Source: Pseudanabaena sp. Chao 1811
Lineage (GTDB): Bacteria; Cyanobacteriota; Cyanobacteriia; Pseudanabaenales; Pseudanabaenaceae
Reading direction: 5' to 3'
DNA: 64,000 bases
Assembly (NCBI RefSeq): GCF_027942295.1
Contig: NZ_CP101416.1
Location: 4,574,501 to 4,638,500 of the forward strand
Part shown: piece after piece, positions 26,288-47,978 of the stretch
How positions within the stretch are numbered: position 1 is the first letter of the stretch
Layout: each line of letters begins with the position of its first letter
Made by a program: the position numbers and the translations under genes
Notes under the pieces: model-generated
What the model was told of the DNA's origin: nothing
What the model saw: the letters and a program-made list of their open reading frames with translations, nothing else
Database searches by the model: none

Positions 26288-27811
26288 CTAAAGTTCATAA
26301 GTCATTGCTAGAGAAAAAATCGCTCTAAGAGAGAAGAGATAACCATTAAGCAAATCATCGTACCCACCATCCCCACTACCTTTATAAAATCTCAACATCT
26401 TTGGAAAGCTTGCTAGAAGAGAATCTTGTGTATTTTTTGTGTCATTAATAAATTCAGTATGCGTCCTCCAGTTGTCTCTTTGTGGATGATACCAACCAAC
26501 TTTTGACGCAAATTTTTTAAACACCTTATGATCAAATTTGCCGATTTCGCCGCCACAGTCTAGCCAGAGCTTTTTCTGAATGCTAAAGCCAAACTTGCTA
26601 TTACTGTAATGCACCCACAACTGATCGATCGTCCGCAAATCTTCGCAAGGGAAAGCCTCAATCTTCTCACTATCTAGACAACCCTCTTTTTCCCGATAAG
26701 CAAACTGATGTATCAATTTAGCAGTCAGTTCATCCGCTTTGCGCCATTCCTGCGACTTTAGCAATTTCTCCAACTCACGATAATCAATCCCCTTCGCACT
26801 CACCAATTCTACAGGATTTTTCTTGACCTCTGGAACAGGCGGCGCTACAGATTTTTTACTACCCTGATCGCTAAATCTTTCCTTTAATTGCGAATTAGGA
26901 ATAGATTGCTTATTAGCCAAACGCTGAAAAGCATTAATCACCTTTATATCCGTTCCACCAGATGCCACATTTATCCGCATCCATAACTGAAAAGCCAGAG
27001 TAAAATCTTCTTCAATTTCCGCTTGGAGCGCATGTTCTCTTAGTAAAGCAATATCAGTAAGATTGGCAAACTTCGGCAACAGAATGTAATGCAACTTAGT
27101 TTCAGGTTCAACCACAACGTAAGGAGTTTGTGCATAATTCTTGTACCTTTGCGTCAACTTTGGTACACGAAATTTCAAATAATTAGCAAAACGTTCTACT
27201 GTCGCACAATTCCCCTCACCCTGAATCCGCAAAGCCTCCAGCAACACATTTGTAAAAGCCCCTTGCCCAATCTCATCAATCTCATAGGAAACCTGTGACG
27301 GACTACAAGAAAAGAACGTGATTACACCTTGCTGCTTCTCCTCACCGATGCCCATACCTGCATTCTTCGCACCATCACTGCGACAAGCATCGATCAACAT
27401 CACCACATTGTCCGCCCCACTCCGCCGCAAACGATCTGTAATACTTGACAAGGGAATTGTTGTCTTGGAAGCAATGCTGAGACTGAAATCAATTGGCAAA
27501 AGGCAATCTCTGCCTTCATAGGGCATTCCATGACCGCTAAAGTAGAACCACAGCGTATCACCTGACTCTAGGAATGGAGTTTCAAAACTTTCCGTAAAAA
27601 AAGTTTCAAGATTGCTGTAGGTTGGTTGGGTATCCCTGCCCCAAACATCGCATGGAGAATCGTCAGAAAAAAAGTACAAATTTTCAGGGCTAACCTGCAA
27701 ATCCTGCATGAAAAAATCACGCATCTTCTCAGCATCGCTTTTGGCATACTTTAGAGGCTGGATTTTTTTGTAATTATTAATCCCGACGACCACCGCGAAA
27801 TTTCTTGCCAT
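26288..27811 (-). CDS. Caspase-like (metacaspase) protein with C-terminal GUN4 domain
   Basis: The 507-residue protein begins with a peptidase C14 caspase fold (1 to about 245). The His/Cys dyad is H94 in LWFYFSGHGMP and C143 in VMLIDACRSDG, and ITFFSCSPSQVSYE and GQGAFTNVLLEAL complete the fold. A helical linker (about 250-335) leads to a GUN4 domain (about 344-500): YRELEKLLKSQEWRKADELT, FPCEDLRTIDQLW and FGFSIQKKLWLDCGG. GUN4 proteins bind protoporphyrin IX and Mg-protoporphyrin and activate ChlH. The combination suggests a protease controlled by a tetrapyrrole- or partner-binding module. It lies four bases after the Trypco1 gene in one operon. All catalytic residues are present, so it should be an active Arg/Lys-type or related protease; the substrate is unknown. 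Confidence 0.9.
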   Translation of the reverse strand: MARNFAVVVGINNYKKIQPLKYAKSDAEKMRDFFMQDLQVSPENLYFFSDDSPCDVWGRDTQPTYSNLETFFTESFETPFLESGDTLWFYFSGHGMPYEGRDCLLPIDFSLSIASKTTIPLSSITDRLRRSGADNVVMLIDACRSDGAKNAGMGIGEEKQQGVITFFSCSPSQVSYEIDEIGQGAFTNVLLEALRIQGEGNCATVERFANYLKFRVPKLTQRYKNYAQTPYVVVEPETKLHYILLPKFANLTDIALLREHALQAEIEEDFTLAFQLWMRINVASGGTDIKVINAFQRLANKQSIPNSQLKERFSDQGSKKSVAPPVPEVKKNPVELVSAKGIDYRELEKLLKSQEWRKADELTAKLIHQFAYREKEGCLDSEKIEAFPCEDLRTIDQLWVHYSNSKFGFSIQKKLWLDCGGEIGKFDHKVFKKFASKVGWYHPQRDNWRTHTEFINDTKNTQDSLLASFPKMLRFYKGSGDGGYDDLLNGYLFSLRAIFSLAMTYEL

Positions 27812-27815
27812 ACCT

Positions 27816-28226
27816 TTAAACAGACTCCGAAGGCTGAGATTTTTTAGGTAACTCTGCTCGCTTAAATTTTAACTCGATCGCCCCTTTTCCAGAGGTTTCA
27901 ATCCCCGTACCCAAGAGCTTAATTTCACCCTTAGCAGAAATGTCAACCGCCAATTTGATCTCATCTAGTTGTAGCCCTGCTTGGGGATCAATTTGTTTTT
28001 GAGCATCAGCAAAGACTCGACCAATCACCCGCACAAACTGGGACATCTGCGCCGCCAAGTTCTCCGCTTTCACCCGACTTTCTTTAATCGCTTCCCCTGA
28101 TACTGTTGCTGCTGAGCGTGGGTTAGCGGGACTGAAAGCAACTGTCTTTTGCCCAGATTGAGATTCTTGGCGATCGCTAGCGGTCACGATCCACAGTTCC
28201 TCATCACTCCAATCTTGTTCCTGCAT
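27816..28226 (-). CDS. Trypco1 (CU044_2847-type) domain protein
   Basis: The protein is 136 residues from ATG 28226, chosen because GAGG precedes it at good spacing; a TTG at 28256 would add ten residues. The C-terminal half has the block QAGLQLDEIKLAVDISAKGEIKLLGTGIETSGKGAIELKFKR (split here: LDEIKLAVDISAKG then GIELKFKR-type ending), the beta-strand pattern of the trypsin-co-occurring domain 1. These small domains are found next to peptidases in bacterial conflict systems and are thought to regulate or be targeted by them. The stop is four bases before the caspase-GUN4 start, so the pair is translationally close and probably a functional module. Confidence 0.75.
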   Translation of the reverse strand: MQEQDWSDEELWIVTASDRQESQSGQKTVAFSPANPRSAATVSGEAIKESRVKAENLAAQMSQFVRVIGRVFADAQKQIDPQAGLQLDEIKLAVDISAKGEIKLLGTGIETSGKGAIELKFKRAELPKKSQPSESV

Positions 28227-28327
28227 TTTTGCCTCTAGACTGCATATTTCTAGCAATTATGCATTATTTTCTCATATTTGATAAGTAATCATGCAGCCGA
28301 TACCAACAGTCAGTAGCTATCGGGTTA

Positions 28328-33698: not shown

Positions 33699-34055
33699 TT
33701 ATTTCTCAAGAGTTCTCATTCTAATCTTGTCTTCTTCAATAACACTGAAATGTCCATGCCAGTCATCACGCATGGCAATCACTCTAGAAACTTTTTCAGC
33801 TACTGCTGCTCCAGATGGTGCTTTAATCCTAAATAAAATAATGCCAATAGTAGCAGGCAATTTTGAACGAAAAGCCAATTCTCCAAAATCTTTGTCAAAG
33901 GTTAAAAGAATGCGATTTTCTACTTGAGCACGATTCAACACTTCGGGGTCAGAGATTCCAGGGGATTCTACTCTAATCCAAGCAACATCATGTCCGTTTT
34001 GACGTAACGCTTCAACAGCATCAAAGGGAAAATTTTCGTTAGCAAGGAATCTCAT
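33699..34055 (-). CDS. DUF5615 (PIN-like) putative toxin
   Basis: The 118-residue protein begins MRFLANENFPFDAVEALRQNGHDVAW and contains EVLNRAQVENRILLTFDKDFGELAF. These are the N-E-N/D, D-P-E-V and D-K-D-F-G acidic motifs of DUF5615, a PIN-like nuclease fold. It is usually encoded directly after a DUF433 antitoxin, as here (three bases apart). The toxin probably cleaves RNA, but activity for this family is largely untested. The stop lies within two bases of a truncated ddpX repeat. Confidence 0.85.
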   Translation of the reverse strand: MRFLANENFPFDAVEALRQNGHDVAWIRVESPGISDPEVLNRAQVENRILLTFDKDFGELAFRSKLPATIGIILFRIKAPSGAAVAEKVSRVIAMRDDWHGHFSVIEEDKIRMRTLEK

Positions 34056-34058
34056 AGA

Positions 34059-34289
34059 TTAAGTAGAAATAGCATAGACTTTTTCGGATTTGAGAGCAGC
34101 ACTGGCATAGCTGAGACAAGCTTGTATATCCGCAACAGTGATACCTGGATAATTTCGCAGAATTTCTTCAATACTCCAACCCTGTGCCAGAAGATCAATA
34201 ATAAATTCAACTGCCAGTCTTGTTCCTTTAATAATTGGCTTGCCAACTAAAATATTAGGATTAACAGTAATTCGAGTTTGCCAGTCCAT
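34059..34289 (-). CDS. DUF433 antitoxin
   Basis: The 76-residue protein starts MDWQTRITVNPNILVGKPIIKGTRLAVEFIIDLLAQGWSIEEILRNYPGITVADIQACLSY (written here in part: NILVGKPIIKGTRLAVE and GITVADIQACL), the standard DUF433 sequence with a winged-helix-like DNA-binding fold. It precedes the DUF5615 gene by three bases in the same operon. Such pairs are type II-like toxin-antitoxin modules that autoregulate by antitoxin binding to the promoter. Between its start and the ddpX stop there is an 89-base stretch whose minus-strand frame (FWRNVEIIWLYIEQKRYIYD) continues open, possibly a further gene remnant. Confidence 0.9.
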   Translation of the reverse strand: MDWQTRITVNPNILVGKPIIKGTRLAVEFIIDLLAQGWSIEEILRNYPGITVADIQACLSYASAALKSEKVYAIST

Positions 34290-38153: not shown

Positions 38154-40421
38154 ATGACTCAAGAACCAGAAAAACCATCTCGACTGCGAAAATTTTTAAG
38201 TTTTTCATCGTTAGGCATTACTGGTAGTGCATTTATCAATTATTTGATTAAGCAAGACTGGGTAATGGCAGCGATCGCACTAACTTGTTTTGTCTTGGCG
38301 GCGATTTTGGGGATTTTCTGGGCTTATGTCAAAAACTTTTTGGAACGACTAAAAGAAAAGTTAGCAGAGAAAGGGGCTGAGGATGCCGATCGTTTTTTAG
38401 AAGGGATGGAACATTTGCGAGAAAAGTTAGCGGCAAAATCATCACAACAGGAAGCTTTAAAGGAAGTTGTCTCTCAACTATCTGATTTTGAGTCAAAATA
38501 TCTCGAAGAGCAAAAACTTACCTGCCATGAAGATCGGGCAATTGGCATTAGAGAGATCGAAGGATTTGATAACTATCCTGTCTTACAGGAGATCTTTGTC
38601 CCTTTGCGTTTGACGATTAGTGCAAGGGATGCAGGCTATGATCGTCCCGAATCCTTAGAAGATTACAAGACTACCCAAATTTGGGATTTACTACGCAATA
38701 GTCAAAACAGACCAAAACTAAAACAAATCGCGATTCATGCTTGGGGCGGATTTGGTAAAACTACGCTTTTAAAGCATCTCTCATTTATTTACAGCGCTCG
38801 CGCCTATGGCAAATATAACGCGCCGAAGTTCATTCCCTTTTTAGTTTATTTAGCAGATTGTTATCTGACTCTCTCGCAAGATAATCCGCCAAGCTTGCCA
38901 GAATTTTTAACCAATGATCACGTTAATAAATTGCTGGAAGATCAAGAGCTAGTCGCGCCGCCAGATTGGGTGTTGAACTTGCTTAGAGAAGGTCAAGCAT
39001 TGGTGATGTTTGATGGTTTTGATGAAATACCAATTTCGGAAAGAGCAAAGGTCAGTGAGTGGCTAAGTGCGGCGATGCAGAAATATCGCAATTCGGTTTT
39101 TATCATCACTTCGCGTCCAACTGCCTATCGCGAAAACTATACTGCTCAGAAGCCATCATCAAGTTTTTGGATTGAGAAATTTAATCAGGAACAACGTCAA
39201 AAGTTTGTCGAGCAGTGGTATCTCTGCCAAGAAATCATGGCTAGGGGTGGTCGTTCTGGCAAAGATGTGGAACGCGCCGCTAAAAACAAAGCAAAGTCTC
39301 TCTTAGCGCAAATTAAGGAACGTCCAGAACTAGATGCGATCGCAGGTAATGCACTCTTGTTAAATATGATGGTGCGCTACCATCGGGATGAGCTAGGCGC
39401 AGAGCTACCAAAGCGCAAGGTGGAGCTATATCAAGGCATTTGTGAGTTACAGCTAAACCGCAGACCGAGTTTAAGAAAAATTGAATTATTACTCAAATCG
39501 ACAAATCAGCGTCAAGAGGTGCTGCAATTTGTGGCGCTAGAAATGATGAAACGGGCTACAAACGATCGCGAAGAGGGCTTTAAACAAATTCAACGTGATG
39601 ATTTGTTAGATAAGCTGAAGATTGGTTTGGATAAATTTGATAGTGAAGTTAATGTGGAAAAGTTTTTGGCGCAAATGGCTGATATCAGTGAGATGTTGGT
39701 TAGAAGAGACGAAAATATCTATCAGTTCTCCCATTTGAGCTTTCAAGAATTTCTAGCTGCTTCGGAACTTGTGCGTTTAAAAGAAGATGGGGAGTCTTTG
39801 TTATTTAAGAAGTTAAGCTTGAACGTATGGAAAGATACGATTTTGTTTTATGCCAGCCTGACACCAAATCCTAATAGACTCATTCAAAGGCTAGTCGATC
39901 TCGATAATCGTGACCTCGTAGATCTCATTTATCGCCAAACTAATAAGGCTGATGTTTTAAAGTCACTCGAAAAGTTAGTGATCGATAAGCGCTATGAGCA
40001 ATTAGAAACTTATCTCAAGGCGAAGGAATGGGAAAAGGCGGATCGGGAAACCGATAGATTGATGCTGAGTGCAGTCGGGAAAGAATCAAATCAATGGCTA
40101 GATGAAGATGACTTACGCAACTTTCCTTGTGATGAGCTATTGGCTATAGATCGCCTCTGGGTAAAGCATAGCAATGGACTGTATGGCTTTAGTGTCCAGA
40201 AGCAGATTTATGTCGAGTGTGGTGGTAAGCTAGATTTTAGTTTGCCAAGTTCTGAGACTTGGGATAAATTTTGCGATCGCACTGCATGGAAAAGCGAAGG
40301 TAAATGGGTGGACTATCCCGACCAATTTTTTAACGAAAATTTTATAAGTGTGAAGGGACACCTCCCTAGATGGGATGGAATATTCTTTCTCGCATCGAGA
40401 CTTGTGAAGTGTAAGGCATAA
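38154..40421 (+). CDS. Membrane-anchored NACHT NTPase with C-terminal GUN4 domain
   Basis: The 755-residue protein has an N-terminal hydrophobic region (about 16-60, AAIALTCFVLAAILGIFW) and a helical, coiled-coil-prone segment (60-125). A NACHT NTPase follows: Walker A AWGGFGKTTLL at 196-206, Walker B ALVMFDGFDEI at 282-292, a sensor-like FIITSRPTAY at 316-325, and a winged-helix end with FSHLSFQEFLAASEL at 525-539. The C-terminal GUN4 domain (about 614-755) has YEQLETYLKAKEWEKADRET, NFPCDELLAIDRLW and YGFSVQKQIYVECGG. In NLR-like proteins the C-terminus usually senses a trigger. Here that place is taken by a tetrapyrrole-binding fold. It is related in design to the caspase-GUN4 protein 10 kb away and lies next to a TA-like pair. 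Confidence 0.9.
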   Translation: MTQEPEKPSRLRKFLSFSSLGITGSAFINYLIKQDWVMAAIALTCFVLAAILGIFWAYVKNFLERLKEKLAEKGAEDADRFLEGMEHLREKLAAKSSQQEALKEVVSQLSDFESKYLEEQKLTCHEDRAIGIREIEGFDNYPVLQEIFVPLRLTISARDAGYDRPESLEDYKTTQIWDLLRNSQNRPKLKQIAIHAWGGFGKTTLLKHLSFIYSARAYGKYNAPKFIPFLVYLADCYLTLSQDNPPSLPEFLTNDHVNKLLEDQELVAPPDWVLNLLREGQALVMFDGFDEIPISERAKVSEWLSAAMQKYRNSVFIITSRPTAYRENYTAQKPSSSFWIEKFNQEQRQKFVEQWYLCQEIMARGGRSGKDVERAAKNKAKSLLAQIKERPELDAIAGNALLLNMMVRYHRDELGAELPKRKVELYQGICELQLNRRPSLRKIELLLKSTNQRQEVLQFVALEMMKRATNDREEGFKQIQRDDLLDKLKIGLDKFDSEVNVEKFLAQMADISEMLVRRDENIYQFSHLSFQEFLAASELVRLKEDGESLLFKKLSLNVWKDTILFYASLTPNPNRLIQRLVDLDNRDLVDLIYRQTNKADVLKSLEKLVIDKRYEQLETYLKAKEWEKADRETDRLMLSAVGKESNQWLDEDDLRNFPCDELLAIDRLWVKHSNGLYGFSVQKQIYVECGGKLDFSLPSSETWDKFCDRTAWKSEGKWVDYPDQFFNENFISVKGHLPRWDGIFFLASRLVKCKA

Positions 40422-40492: not shown

Positions 40493-41290
40493 TTACCTGT
40501 CACCAGCCGCCTCTCCTTCATCATTGTCTTTTTCCGAAAATTTCTGGCAAGCCACCTTTGGGTCATAGCAATTTGCTATTACAAATTTTTCAGCAACTTG
40601 TCTTATCTCTCCATCGGGCTTATCCCACTCATCCCATAACGACTTCTGCCCTCGACAACCCTTTCCCGTCTTGCCCTTAATTTTTAAATTCGCCAACAAC
40701 TTCGTACCCCAATAATTTTGCCTCTCAGGTTTCGGCTTCGGCTTATATTTCTGGCAAAATTTGCGATACTTCGCTGCACAGATCTCCAACATCGCACCCA
40801 ACATTAAAAACGCAGGATGCCACTGCGTCAACCCATCATCAGTTAAGCGGTCATAGGTTCCATAATTGCTATAGTCATAAAAAAATCCCAACTGCATCCC
40901 CGCCGCCTTCGGGTTCGCATGAATATATCGCAACGTATTCAAAGCCCACCGCATATCCGTATTCGCAAACCCCGTACTGTGATATCGCTTCTCCCAGAAA
41001 TGCCCCGTGCGATTCATCATCTGGTTAAAACACATCGCTGTATACCAGTTCAGCCAATGCATGATCTTTGGTAAATTCTCTGGTTGAGAAGGTTCTATCA
41101 AATAATGAATGTGATTGCTCATGATGCACAGAGCATAGAGTTTAAACCCAAACTTGTCTTTACATTTTTGAATAGAAAAGAGCAACACCTCTCGACATTC
41201 ATCCCGAATCAATCGAAATTCGCGATTATTACACCGAACTGTAACGTGATAGCAATAGCCAGTTTTTAGTTCGCGTGGTTTTCGAGCCAT
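40493..41290 (-). CDS. REP-associated tyrosine transposase (RAYT, IS200-like)
   Basis: The 265-residue protein has the Y1 HUH transposase core. The HUH motif is H60/H62 in CIMSNHIHYLIEP. The catalytic tyrosine is probably Y122 in LRYIHANPKAAG. The N-terminus YCYHVTVRCNNREF is typical for TnpA_REP proteins. A basic C-terminal extension (about 180-230) is present. RAYT proteins cut and move REP palindromes in single-stranded form and are usually single-copy genes with their REPs nearby. Here palindromes of the right kind lie within 500 bases downstream (41313 to 41830). Confidence 0.88.
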   Translation of the reverse strand: MARKPRELKTGYCYHVTVRCNNREFRLIRDECREVLLFSIQKCKDKFGFKLYALCIMSNHIHYLIEPSQPENLPKIMHWLNWYTAMCFNQMMNRTGHFWEKRYHSTGFANTDMRWALNTLRYIHANPKAAGMQLGFFYDYSNYGTYDRLTDDGLTQWHPAFLMLGAMLEICAAKYRKFCQKYKPKPKPERQNYWGTKLLANLKIKGKTGKGCRGQKSLWDEWDKPDGEIRQVAEKFVIANCYDPKVACQKFSEKDNDEGEAAGDR

Positions 41291-41312: not shown

Positions 41313-41383
41313 GTAGGGGTAGAGCATTTGCGCCACTATCTCGCAACACTCCACCACAATCTCCATCCGCAAATGCTCTACCC
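41313..41383. repeat. REPIN-like palindrome 1
   Basis: GTAGGGGTAGAGCATTTGCG at 41313-41332 and CGCAAATGCTCTACCC at 41368-41383 form a palindrome around a 35-base spacer. It lies 23 bases before the start codon of the RAYT gene. Confidence 0.75.
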
Positions 41384-41429: not shown

Positions 41430-41545
41430 ATAGCCATAGCCAGTTATGTTATGACAAAAACAAAACCCAAAAGAGAGTTGCGGCGCTTCGCGCCGCAACT
41501 CTCTTTTGGGTTTTATGTCTTAACTTACTTGGCTATAGCTATATT
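41430..41545. repeat. Hairpin element with conserved outer arms (F3)
   Basis: The perfect 25-bp inner stem (41462-41486 with 41490-41514, loop TTC) is flanked by outer arms ATAGCCATAGCCAGTTATG and CTTACTTGGCTATAGCTAT that also pair, giving a total inverted repeat of about 50 bases per side. No gene spans it, so it is not an obvious terminator. Confidence 0.7.
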
Positions 41546-41591
41546 AGATATTTCGGGCAGTTCGAGATTTTTGGTGAATGATGAAGATTAA

Positions 41592-41660
41592 GGGCAGAGC
41601 ATTCCCGATTTAGACGGATCTAAGAATTCATAAATTGTTGCGGGAATGCTCTGCCCCTAC
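41592..41660. repeat. REPIN-like palindrome 2
   Basis: GGGCAGAGCATTCCCG at 41592-41607 pairs with CGGGAATGCTCTGCCCCTAC at 41641-41660 across a 33-base spacer. The right arm is identical to the solitary element at 26167-26185. Confidence 0.75.
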
Positions 41661-44533: not shown

Positions 44534-44732
44534 TTTTTACGCGATTACTGGAGGTACATAAAAACTTATTCTGAGATGGTCTCGACATATCTGTAAGGCT
44601 TTTAAGCTATAATGGCAGAGTGTTTTTGAATCTTTACTCAAAAAACACCTTAAAACACCATCAAGAGCGCTTGTAAAGTTTTTCTTTAAAGCCCCCTTGA
44701 AGACGACATAATTTCTGGAGTTGTTTACCTTC

Positions 44733-47700
44733 ATGCCTGAGATCGTTACAGAAACTTATAATGCCAATCAGATCCAAGTACTAGAAGGTCTAGAAGCAGT
44801 TCGTAAGCGACCTGGGATGTATATCGGTACAACAGGACCAAAAGGATTACATCACCTTGTTTTTGAAGTCGTTGACAACAGCGTTGATGAAGCCCTTGCA
44901 GGACATTGCGATCGCATTTTAGTTGAGCTTTTACCCGATGGCTCCGTACAGGTCTCCGATAATGGACGCGGCATCCCAACCGATACTCATCCGAAAACTG
45001 GAAAATCTGCCCTCGAAACCGTACTCACCGTTCTCCATGCAGGTGGAAAGTTCGGCGATGGTGGTTACAAAGTATCAGGTGGCTTACATGGTGTCGGTAT
45101 TTCTGTAGTTAATGCCCTCTCCGAATGGGTAGAGGTCTCCGTATGGCGACTAGAAAAAGTCTATAAGCAACGATATGAAAGGGGCTTTCCTGTCACAGAA
45201 TTAATCGCTAGCCCAAGCGAAGAAGCTCAACCCCGACGAGGTACACAGGTACGTTTCAAGCCTGATTCGCAAATTTTTACCACCCAAACTGAATTTGAAT
45301 ACGATATTCTCGCGAGCCGACTCAAAGAGCTTGCCTACCTCAATGCTGGCGTAAAAATTGAATTTTGCGATCGCCGAGGTGAAGAACTTCGCACCGATAT
45401 CTATTGTTATGAAGGTGGTATTCGCGAATATGTCGCCTACATGACTCGCGACAAAGAACCTATTCACCCTGACATTATCTATGTAAATGGTGAACGCGAT
45501 AACGTTGTTGTTGAAGTCGCATTGCAATGGTGTATTGATTCCTACAATGACAACGTTCTTGGCTTTGCGAATAACATCCGCACAATTGACGGTGGAACTC
45601 ACTTAGAAGGACTGAAAACCGTTCTTACGCGCACGATGAATGCTACGGCTCGGAGACTCAAAAAGATCAAAGAGGGCGAATCAAATCTCGCTGGGGAAAA
45701 TGTCCGAGAAGGTTTAACGGCAGTAATTTCCGTTAAGGTTACTGATCCAGAATTTGAAGGTCAAACTAAAACTAAGCTAGGTAATACGGAAGTACGCGGT
45801 ATTGTTGATTCCTTCGTTGGTGAAGTTCTCAATGAATATCTAGAGTTCCATCCTGCGGTTGCTACTTCAATTATCGAAAAAGCACTACAAGCTTTTAATG
45901 CGGCTGAAGCTGCCCGTCGCGCCCGTGAACTAGTTCGACGCAAATCTGCTTTGGAGTCTTCCACTTTACCGGGAAAGCTTGCCGACTGTAGTTCTCGCGA
46001 TCCCAAAGAATCCGAAATCTTCATTGTTGAGGGAGACTCCGCAGGCGGCTGTTTTGATGGTGATACCCTCGTTGCCCTAGTAGACGGACGCAATATTAGT
46101 TTCAAGCAATTGGTAGAAGAAGAAAAGGCTGGTAAGCAAAACTTCTGTTACACGATTCGTAACGATGGCACGATTGGAGTTGAGCAGATTATCAATGCCA
46201 GAATTACTAAGCGAAATGCAGAGGTAATTCGTGTCACTTTAGATAATGGTGAGCAGCTAGTTTGTACACCTGATCATCCTTTCATGCTTCGCGATCGCAC
46301 TTACAAAGCCGCCGCCGAACTCGCGGTTGATGATTCATTAATGCCTCTCTATCGCAGGCTGTCTAGTAAAGCTGATAAGAGCATCACCATCGATGGATAT
46401 GAAATGGTATGGAATCCCAAATCCGATGGCTGGTTATTCACGCACGTGATCGCAGATTGGTATAACCGTTATCAAGGTGTTTACCAAGTCGAAGATGGGG
46501 ATCATTGTCATCATGTTGATTTTAATAAACTGAATAATAATCCAACTAATCTCCAACGTTTGCCAAAGTTAGATCATTTGCAATTGCATCAAGTTCACAT
46601 TGCCCAAACCTTACATCGTCCTGAAGTCATCGAAAAATGCCGTCAATTAAAAACTACGGAAGAATTTCGCGATCGCATGAGTCAGAGAATGCAAGAACCT
46701 GCAACTAGAGAAATTCTCTCGCAACAGGCAAAGGCACAGTGGGAAGATGCCGATTACAAAGCCTATATGACTGCGAAGTGGCGTGAATTTTATGAGAGCA
46801 ATCCTGATTATCAAACACAAAATCAGCAGCAGTTAGATCGGTCTCAGCGAGAATATTGGAGTAATCCTGAACATCGTCAGCAGCAATCTACAAGAACAAA
46901 AGAATTTTTTGCCCAAAACCCTGAAGCAAGACAACGCTTATCAGAAATTGCACAGCAACAATGGCAAAATCCTGATCTGATCGATTGGCGACGTGTAAAA
47001 ACTCAAGAGCAATGGACAGATACCTTTAGAGCAAAACGTAAGGCTGCTTTACAACAAACCTATTACCGCAAAACCTTAGCTGCTCTTAAGCAGATTGCAG
47101 TTGAGAATGGTTGTCTTGATTTAGATGCCTATCGTGCTTATCGCATTGATACTCGCGATAAATCTCTACTCAAGTTTGAGACATTTTGCGATCGCTATTT
47201 TGAAGGTAATTCCGAACTTGCAGTTGAGGCAGTTACTAATTACAATCATCGCATTGTCAAGGTTGAGAAACTAAGCGAGCGTATTGATGTTTATGACATC
47301 GAAGTGCCAAATAGCCACAATTTTGCCCTTGCTAGTGGTGTATTTGTACATAACAGTGCTAAGCAAGGACGCGATCGCCATTATCAAGCAATCCTGCCAT
47401 TGCGCGGTAAAGTTCTCAATATCGAGCGAGCCGATGATAGCAAGATCTATAAAAACAATGAAATCCAAGCCTTAATTACAGGCTGTGGTCTTGGTATTAA
47501 AGGTGAAGACTTTAACGAAGCCCAACTTCGCTATCACAAAATTATCTTGCTGGCTGATGCGGATGTGGATGGAGCGCACATTCGGACATTGCTCTTGACC
47601 TTCTTCTATCGCTATCAAAGAGAACTACTCGATCGCGGCTTTATCTATATCGGTTGTCCTCCACTCTATAAGGTGGAGCGCGGTAAAAACCATACCTATT

Positions 47701-47978
47701 GCTATACCGATCGCGATTTGCAGGAGCTAATAGCTTCTTTCCCTCCTAATGCCAACTACAGCATTCAGCGCTTCAAAGGTTTAGGTGAAATGATGCCGCA
47801 ACAGCTATGGGAAACGACCATGAACCCTGCCACGCGATCGCTGAAACGTCTCACCATTGAAGATGCTGCGGAAGCTGATCGGATCTTCACAATCTTAATG
47901 GGTGATAAAGTTGCCCCACGCCGCGAATTTATTGAGACCTATGGCTCAAAATTAGGACTTGCAGATCTAGATATCTAA
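44733..47978 (+). CDS. gyrB: DNA gyrase subunit B with in-frame intein
   Basis: GyrB is the ATPase subunit of gyrase. ATG 44733 (MPEIVTETYNANQIQVLEG...) is chosen; GGAG at 44717-44720 is 12 bases upstream. The precursor is 1081 residues; removing the 435-residue intein leaves 646, the normal GyrB size. N-terminal GHKL motifs are VDNSVDEALAG, DNGRGIP and GGLHGVGISVVNAL. The Toprim part has EGDSAGG before the intein and SAKQGRDRHYQAILPLRGK after it, then DADVDGAHIRTLLLTFF. The intein interrupts the catalytic EGDSAGG|SAKQ loop, so the enzyme is inactive until splicing. Two hairpins follow at 47977-48045. Confidence 0.97.
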   Translation: MPEIVTETYNANQIQVLEGLEAVRKRPGMYIGTTGPKGLHHLVFEVVDNSVDEALAGHCDRILVELLPDGSVQVSDNGRGIPTDTHPKTGKSALETVLTVLHAGGKFGDGGYKVSGGLHGVGISVVNALSEWVEVSVWRLEKVYKQRYERGFPVTELIASPSEEAQPRRGTQVRFKPDSQIFTTQTEFEYDILASRLKELAYLNAGVKIEFCDRRGEELRTDIYCYEGGIREYVAYMTRDKEPIHPDIIYVNGERDNVVVEVALQWCIDSYNDNVLGFANNIRTIDGGTHLEGLKTVLTRTMNATARRLKKIKEGESNLAGENVREGLTAVISVKVTDPEFEGQTKTKLGNTEVRGIVDSFVGEVLNEYLEFHPAVATSIIEKALQAFNAAEAARRARELVRRKSALESSTLPGKLADCSSRDPKESEIFIVEGDSAGGCFDGDTLVALVDGRNISFKQLVEEEKAGKQNFCYTIRNDGTIGVEQIINARITKRNAEVIRVTLDNGEQLVCTPDHPFMLRDRTYKAAAELAVDDSLMPLYRRLSSKADKSITIDGYEMVWNPKSDGWLFTHVIADWYNRYQGVYQVEDGDHCHHVDFNKLNNNPTNLQRLPKLDHLQLHQVHIAQTLHRPEVIEKCRQLKTTEEFRDRMSQRMQEPATREILSQQAKAQWEDADYKAYMTAKWREFYESNPDYQTQNQQQLDRSQREYWSNPEHRQQQSTRTKEFFAQNPEARQRLSEIAQQQWQNPDLIDWRRVKTQEQWTDTFRAKRKAALQQTYYRKTLAALKQIAVENGCLDLDAYRAYRIDTRDKSLLKFETFCDRYFEGNSELAVEAVTNYNHRIVKVEKLSERIDVYDIEVPNSHNFALASGVFVHNSAKQGRDRHYQAILPLRGKVLNIERADDSKIYKNNEIQALITGCGLGIKGEDFNEAQLRYHKIILLADADVDGAHIRTLLLTFFYRYQRELLDRGFIYIGCPPLYKVERGKNHTYCYTDRDLQELIASFPPNANYSIQRFKGLGEMMPQQLWETTMNPATRSLKRLTIEDAAEADRIFTILMGDKVAPRREFIETYGSKLGLADLDI
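46050..47354 (+). other. GyrB intein with HNH homing endonuclease
   Basis: The intein starts at Cys (codon 46050) in CFDGDTLVALVDG and ends with VFVHN (last codon 47352-47354); the extein residue after it is Ser. Block B is CTPDHPFMLRDRTY (TxxH), and block F/G is IDVYDIEVPNSHNFALASGVFVHN (in two parts: IDVYDIEVPNSHNFALASG and VFVHN). The middle carries an HNH nuclease: HCHHVDFNKLNNNPTNLQRL. The length of 435 residues and the insertion site match, from memory, the GyrB intein of Synechocystis. All splice residues are present, so it should splice, and the nuclease looks complete. Confidence 0.93.

Follow-up and report, generated by a model that had tools for sequence, protein, structure and literature searches.

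What does an NLR-like protein of a cyanobacterium sense when the domain in its sensor position is GUN4? The question is raised by a NACHT-GUN4 gene in the 64,000-nucleotide stretch of Pseudanabaena sp. Chao 1811 DNA that we analyzed (hereafter the window; Table 1). The original prediction was of a membrane-linked NACHT NTPase whose C-terminal GUN4 domain reads porphyrins or a ChlH-like partner, a new type of trigger. Domain searches bear out the architecture: Pfam matches NACHT with 51.8 bits (cut-off 26.7) and GUN4 with 116 bits (cut-off 29.2), the latter in the sensor position. The NTPase motifs GGFGKTT and FDGFDEI are both intact, as predicted, and the Walker motifs rank among the most conserved positions of 59 aligned homologues. 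The C-terminal region folds as GUN4, with Pfam, PDB relatives and fold search in agreement. Among PDB entries, sequence similarity links it to Gun4 of Thermosynechococcus (8e-14), of Synechocystis and of plants. Foldseek, queried with the domain modelled on its own (mean pLDDT just 62, with low confidence in the variable region), returned GUN4 structures only, at probability 1.00. The N-terminal membrane anchor may be retained as a possibility, backed by hydropathy (19-residue mean 1.45 from residue 30) and by helices in a full-length AlphaFold model of low confidence (pLDDT 51). We rejected membership in PD-T4-6, as the PADLOC match spans the GUN4 part alone.

Table 1. Features of the NACHT-GUN4 locus (window coordinates)
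Feature	Position	Strand	Details	Basis
NACHT-GUN4 gene	38154..40421	+	755 aa	ORF; Pfam NACHT and GUN4 over cut-off
Hydrophobic N-terminal stretch	38199..38327	+	residues 16-58; possible membrane hairpin	hydropathy only
NACHT domain	38745..39218	+	residues 198-355; Walker A GGFGKTT, Walker B FDGFDE	Pfam
GUN4 domain	39987..40373	+	residues 612-740	Pfam, PDB relatives, fold search
GHLP codons	40356..40367	+	upstream edge of variable segment	DNA alignments of relatives
Hypervariable segment	40368..40387	+	20 nt here, shortest measured	comparison of relatives
Conserved tail element	40388..40414	+	frame 2 here (...FLASRLVKCKA)	one copy in genome
TACCTGTCACC motif	40494..40504	+	79 nt past tail, at 3' end of transposase gene	
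RAYT-like Y1/HUH transposase	40493..41290	-	265 aa; convergent	Pfam Y1_Tnp, NCBIfam

The NACHT-GUN4 fusion itself is not the news, being widespread in cyanobacteria and preceded by published GUN4 conflict proteins. A class-wide search (E <= 1e-60) found matches in 83 of the 291 cyanobacterial genomes, mostly reaching GUN4, and a search of plasmids for copies of the protein found none. The host genome, a single contig of 4.73 Mb, holds about 20 NACHT-like domains and eight GUN4 matches over cut-off, plus a ninth, partial one. GUN4-metacaspases were known before (PMC2853523), and Kaur et al. 2020 already proposed GUN4 as a tetrapyrrole sensor in cyanobacterial conflict systems (PMC7159879). The fusion by itself is thus no new type.

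Nor does the GUN4 domain of this family look built for one pigment. F196, W192 and R214 of Synechocystis Gun4 are porphyrin-related residues (PMC8967248). Aligned to that protein, the window GUN4 keeps the equivalent of F196 (F725) and carries Y721 at the position of W192; the position of R214 falls inside a hypervariable segment and has no in-register counterpart, so that the porphyrin contacts are half lost. A fixed tetrapyrrole or ChlH-linked sensor, in which porphyrin reading by GUN4 gates the NACHT switch, would agree with the GUN4 fold, the retained phenylalanine and the published proposal. Family-wide, however, the R214 region is sequence of random length, which a shared pigment site would not tolerate, and we regard this explanation as improbable. 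Since hypervariability throughout the family affects the part of GUN4 that bears the key arginine, porphyrin or ChlH reading is unsupported as a shared function, and ligands that vary suit the data better than a single fixed pigment.

Hypervariability begins within GUN4. NACHT-GUN4 relatives align up to G-H/E-L/F-P and are hypervariable thereafter; in DNA terms, the variable segment runs from the GHLP codons (GGACACCTCCC in this group) to the conserved tail TCTCGCATCGAGACTTGTGAACTGTAG. Alignments show the variation to be confined to this interval: the DNA of Pseudanabaena orthologues is alignable on both flanks and not in the segment, and four tandem kinase-GUN4 paralogues of one genome likewise align in their flanks and not in their segments. 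Across fused GUN4 genes, the segment is 20-178 nt long, with lengths random modulo 3. It is rich in G (44%) and T (31%), a bias that is alike across all codon phases and therefore indicates an origin at the nucleotide level.

Variation follows the tail element rather than GUN4. We compared one genome per species, in pairs that are not independent. Tailed genes whose GUN4 domains are 80-90% identical share a segment identity of 0.26 and never have segments of equal length (12 non-independent pairs), and this identity of 26% is no higher than that of pairs with 50-60% identical domains. Fusions that lack the tail are invariant, with segment identities of 0.97 at 80-90% GUN4 identity (3 pairs) and 0.98 at 90-100% (7 pairs), and stand-alone Gun4 proteins are 0.90-0.97 identical over the corresponding position. 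Sequence comparison thus supports hypervariability of the GUN4 tip in tailed genes well.

The segments appear to be under selection as protein. Reading frames are open through 59 of 61 segments against an expectation of 0.515 per segment (log10 P -20), a count that would overlook frames stopping over about 150 nt upstream of the tail. A dispensable C-terminus drifting without selection would account for the very high divergence in sequence and length, but it would leave about half of the segments open by chance, and it sits poorly with a tail conserved in all three frames and with conserved tail-less paralogues; we consider such drift very improbable. Two distant NACHT-GUN4 genes (L015, 7776-10205; L099, 5937-8222) have almost identical tips, MSGK.GRRGDGDFFARI, whose coding sequences differ by several silent changes; some tips thus appear to be fixed and stable, or transferred.

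The conserved tail is a 27-bp DNA element that is translated in every frame. Among all fused GUN4 genes examined, the three frames are used 23, 20 and 16 times, and within NACHT-GUN4 alone 18, 14 and 16 times, giving the read-outs LLSHRDL-stop, LFSRIETCEL-stop or SSLASRLVNCS... by frame. The LLSHRDL frame resembles LLxHPAW of stand-alone Gun4, and the tail therefore looks like an old GUN4 end turned frame-proof. Its pattern occurs in 104 of 291 genomes, that of a reversed control in 0. Caspase, kinase and TIR-like fusions share it (effectors named by sequence inspection rather than domain search). In the host genome it occurs once, and the kinase, RNase III-like and sulfatase-type GUN4 fusions there are without it.

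A second motif stands at a set distance downstream. TACCTGKCACC usually lies 79-80 nt past the tail; 44 of 65 loci have it at fixed spacing, whether or not the transposase gene is there. No structure of this cis block finds support: RNAalifold finds essentially no structured RNA there, Rfam gives sub-threshold matches only, mostly at an unrelated palindrome, and a hairpin just past the tail with at least 6 of 7 pairs is found in 28% of loci versus 20% of swapped controls.

The window contains further genes worth recording. A caspase-GUN4 protein is encoded at 26288-27811 (-), matching NCBIfam caspase_w_EACC1 with 65 bits, below the cut-off of 140. Upstream of it, a small ORF at 27816-28256 (-) resembles by eye a CU044_2847-type partner, and the 3' end of the caspase-GUN4 gene bears degenerate copies of the tail and downstream block. 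Together with NACHT-GUN4, the window thus holds two GUN4-fused candidate conflict proteins. Two small adjacent ORFs at 33699-34289 (-) resemble, by eye, a toxin-antitoxin pair made up of a DUF5615 PIN-like protein and a DUF433 protein. A gyrB-like ORF at 44721-47978 (+) has an in-frame insert of about 430 residues, which starts with CFDGDTLV, ends with VFVHN and looks like an intein.

Facing the NACHT-GUN4 gene is a transposase gene of the HUH type. REP-associated tyrosine transposases are its closest relatives, and we call it RAYT-like only because its score against NCBIfam REP_Tyr_transpos, 68.3 bits, is below the cut-off of 80. Catalytic H60, H62 and Y122 of the HUH and Y..NP motifs are invariant in 17 of 17 relatives. 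The host genome has one copy. Assignment to an IS200/IS605 insertion sequence was rejected (NCBIfam IS200 27.4 bits, cut-off 55; single copy). Upstream of the transposase gene start lies an inverted repeat of 25 bp (41462-41514), perfect and closed by a 3-nt loop, flanked by more inverted repeats at 41317-41383 and 41589-41659; these may be mobile or terminator-like elements.

Tail and transposase are associated. The transposase or its remains adjoin 31 of 69 tailed genes versus 5 of 64 tail-less fusions (p 1e-6, phylogeny ignored), and none of 29 stand-alone Gun4 genes. At the genome level, the tail is found in 42 of 49 genomes with the transposase versus 62 of 242 without (p 3e-15, phylogeny ignored; distant, often multi-copy relatives below 56% identity are excluded from the counts). 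Where present, the enzyme gene is convergent with the GUN4 gene and mostly less than 300 bp from its end. It is the sole specific recurrent neighbour of tailed genes, across several fusion types; generic clusters recurring in 10-11 loci are a histidine-kinase-like and an ABC-transporter-like family. Plasmid records outside the set used to build the pattern place it beside AAA_35-GUN4 and trypsin-GUN4 genes with diverged tails, and a third, partial plasmid match is not beside a GUN4 gene. These counts show that tail and transposase are linked, as a correlation. At one locus (L191; genome G022, 2036500-2050000), four tandem kinase-like GUN4 genes with near-identical flanks and unrelated tips end with one transposase gene, as would be the case with a single enzyme for several targets.

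On balance, we think it probable that these genes undergo targeted, apparently non-templated diversification of the GUN4 sensor tip, linked to the transposase and serving to recognize changing ligands. NACHT-GUN4 would be an NLR-like (STAND) sensor in which a hydrophobic N-terminus precedes the NACHT switch and GUN4 forms the C-terminal scaffold, the tip of which is rewritten where R214 of the porphyrin cleft would lie. New G/T-rich sequence of arbitrary length would take the place of the DNA that separates the GHLP codons from the tail. Whatever the frame, the tail would end the protein acceptably and provide a stop close by, making random segment lengths tolerable. As for the enzyme, the RAYT-like HUH transposase may nick or rejoin the tail/TACCTG block as single-stranded DNA, seeding untemplated extension or slippage repair; it would act on the neighbouring gene and on the other GUN4 genes with a tail in its genome.

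Tip variants would then recognize changing ligands, most likely molecules of phages or other invaders, and signal via the NACHT switch. Ligand recognition by the tip is plausible because it sits where Synechocystis Gun4 has R214 (PMC8967248), and the NACHT architecture, together with the effector domains that carry the same module, points to an immune role. More tentatively, and as a possibility we place a little short of probable, we propose that a domesticated HUH (RAYT-like) transposase generates diversity with neither reverse transcriptase nor template, by rewriting the tip with which GUN4 sensors fused to NACHT, caspase, kinase, TIR and protease domains would face their ligands. Both the causal role of the enzyme and the untemplated synthesis of the segment are steps that we infer.

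The transposase might instead be a bystander that prefers the tail block, with intrinsic slippage and small duplications in G/T-rich DNA, plus diversifying selection on the sensor, generating the variation. Many tailed genes lack the enzyme (38 of 69 have none beside them), tails occur in 62 genomes without a detectable transposase relative, and L106, L107 and L127 have flanks that are duplicated in part, which also fits the slippage-type repair of our proposal. Yet this account does not anticipate that the transposase is single copy in the host and many other genomes, rather than multi-copy like an IS, or that tails are better kept where it is present (0.63 mismatches to consensus in transposase-bearing genomes versus 1.35 in others; p 0.006, phylogeny ignored), and it leaves the invariance of tail-less GUN4 fusions unaccounted for. 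We consider it unlikely, though it carries real weight.

A templated source is the least probable of the explanations that we weighed. Diversity-generating retroelements (DGRs) are reported to diversify conflict proteins in multicellular bacteria (PMC10907252) and occur in cyanobacteria (PMC7517822); such an element, or conversion from a cassette store, could in principle feed the tip. A search of the single-contig host genome for reverse transcriptase (RVT_1, E <= 0.001) gave no match, however, and two segments searched for a second copy in their own genomes (G022 and G015) had none. Segment length and frame vary, moreover, unlike the products of adenine mutagenesis of a fixed template. With no template for two segments and no detectable reverse transcriptase in the host, DGR action or cassette conversion is disfavoured, and we give it the slimmest of chances.

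Targeted, transposase-linked rewriting of the tip would be a distinct kind of diversification. To our knowledge, the targeted diversifiers described in bacteria, namely DGRs, cassette conversion, shufflons and simple-repeat phase variation, copy templates, reshuffle DNA or change repeat numbers. A literature search, with preprints and most subscription papers outside its scope, found no GUN4 hypervariable tail or RAYT-linked diversifier. Our results suggest that bacteria have an as yet undescribed means of diversifying a sensor, one that dispenses with reverse transcriptase. If true, it would assign RAYT-like enzymes a role in the cell and equip bacteria with a repertoire of receptors, built by a new route in which new coding sequence of random length is placed at one receptor surface, with a three-frame tail as safeguard. 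The proposal is directly testable in culturable cyanobacteria.

The system shares parts with several known ones. Antiphage bNACHT proteins, which are NLR-related, likewise combine a central NACHT NTPase with a C-terminal sensor position; the window protein differs in its GUN4 sensor with a hypervariable tip. With the tetrapyrrole-binding GUN4/Ycf53 proteins it has in common the fold and the F196 equivalent, whereas a variable segment replaces the R214 region and NACHT is fused to the domain. The VMAP ternary and TRADD-N conflict systems (Kaur et al. 2020, 2021) also fuse GUN4 to predicted immune or cell-death domains of cyanobacteria; the accessible parts of these papers treat GUN4 as tetrapyrrole-binding and do not describe a variable tip, tail element or transposase. 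DGRs, too, target hypervariation near the C-termini of conflict proteins, but the GUN4 tip is G/T-rich and random in length and frame, with no reverse transcriptase detected in the host and no template for the two segments searched. RAYT/TnpA-REP enzymes are likewise single-copy HUH-Y1 proteins with a class-2-like Y..NP motif; the window enzyme is tied to GUN4 3' ends, and the tail element found with it, at one copy in the host genome, does not look like a dispersed REP repeat there. The proposed rewriting of the tip is comparable to the CDR3 junction of antibodies, and its tail would function in every reading frame.
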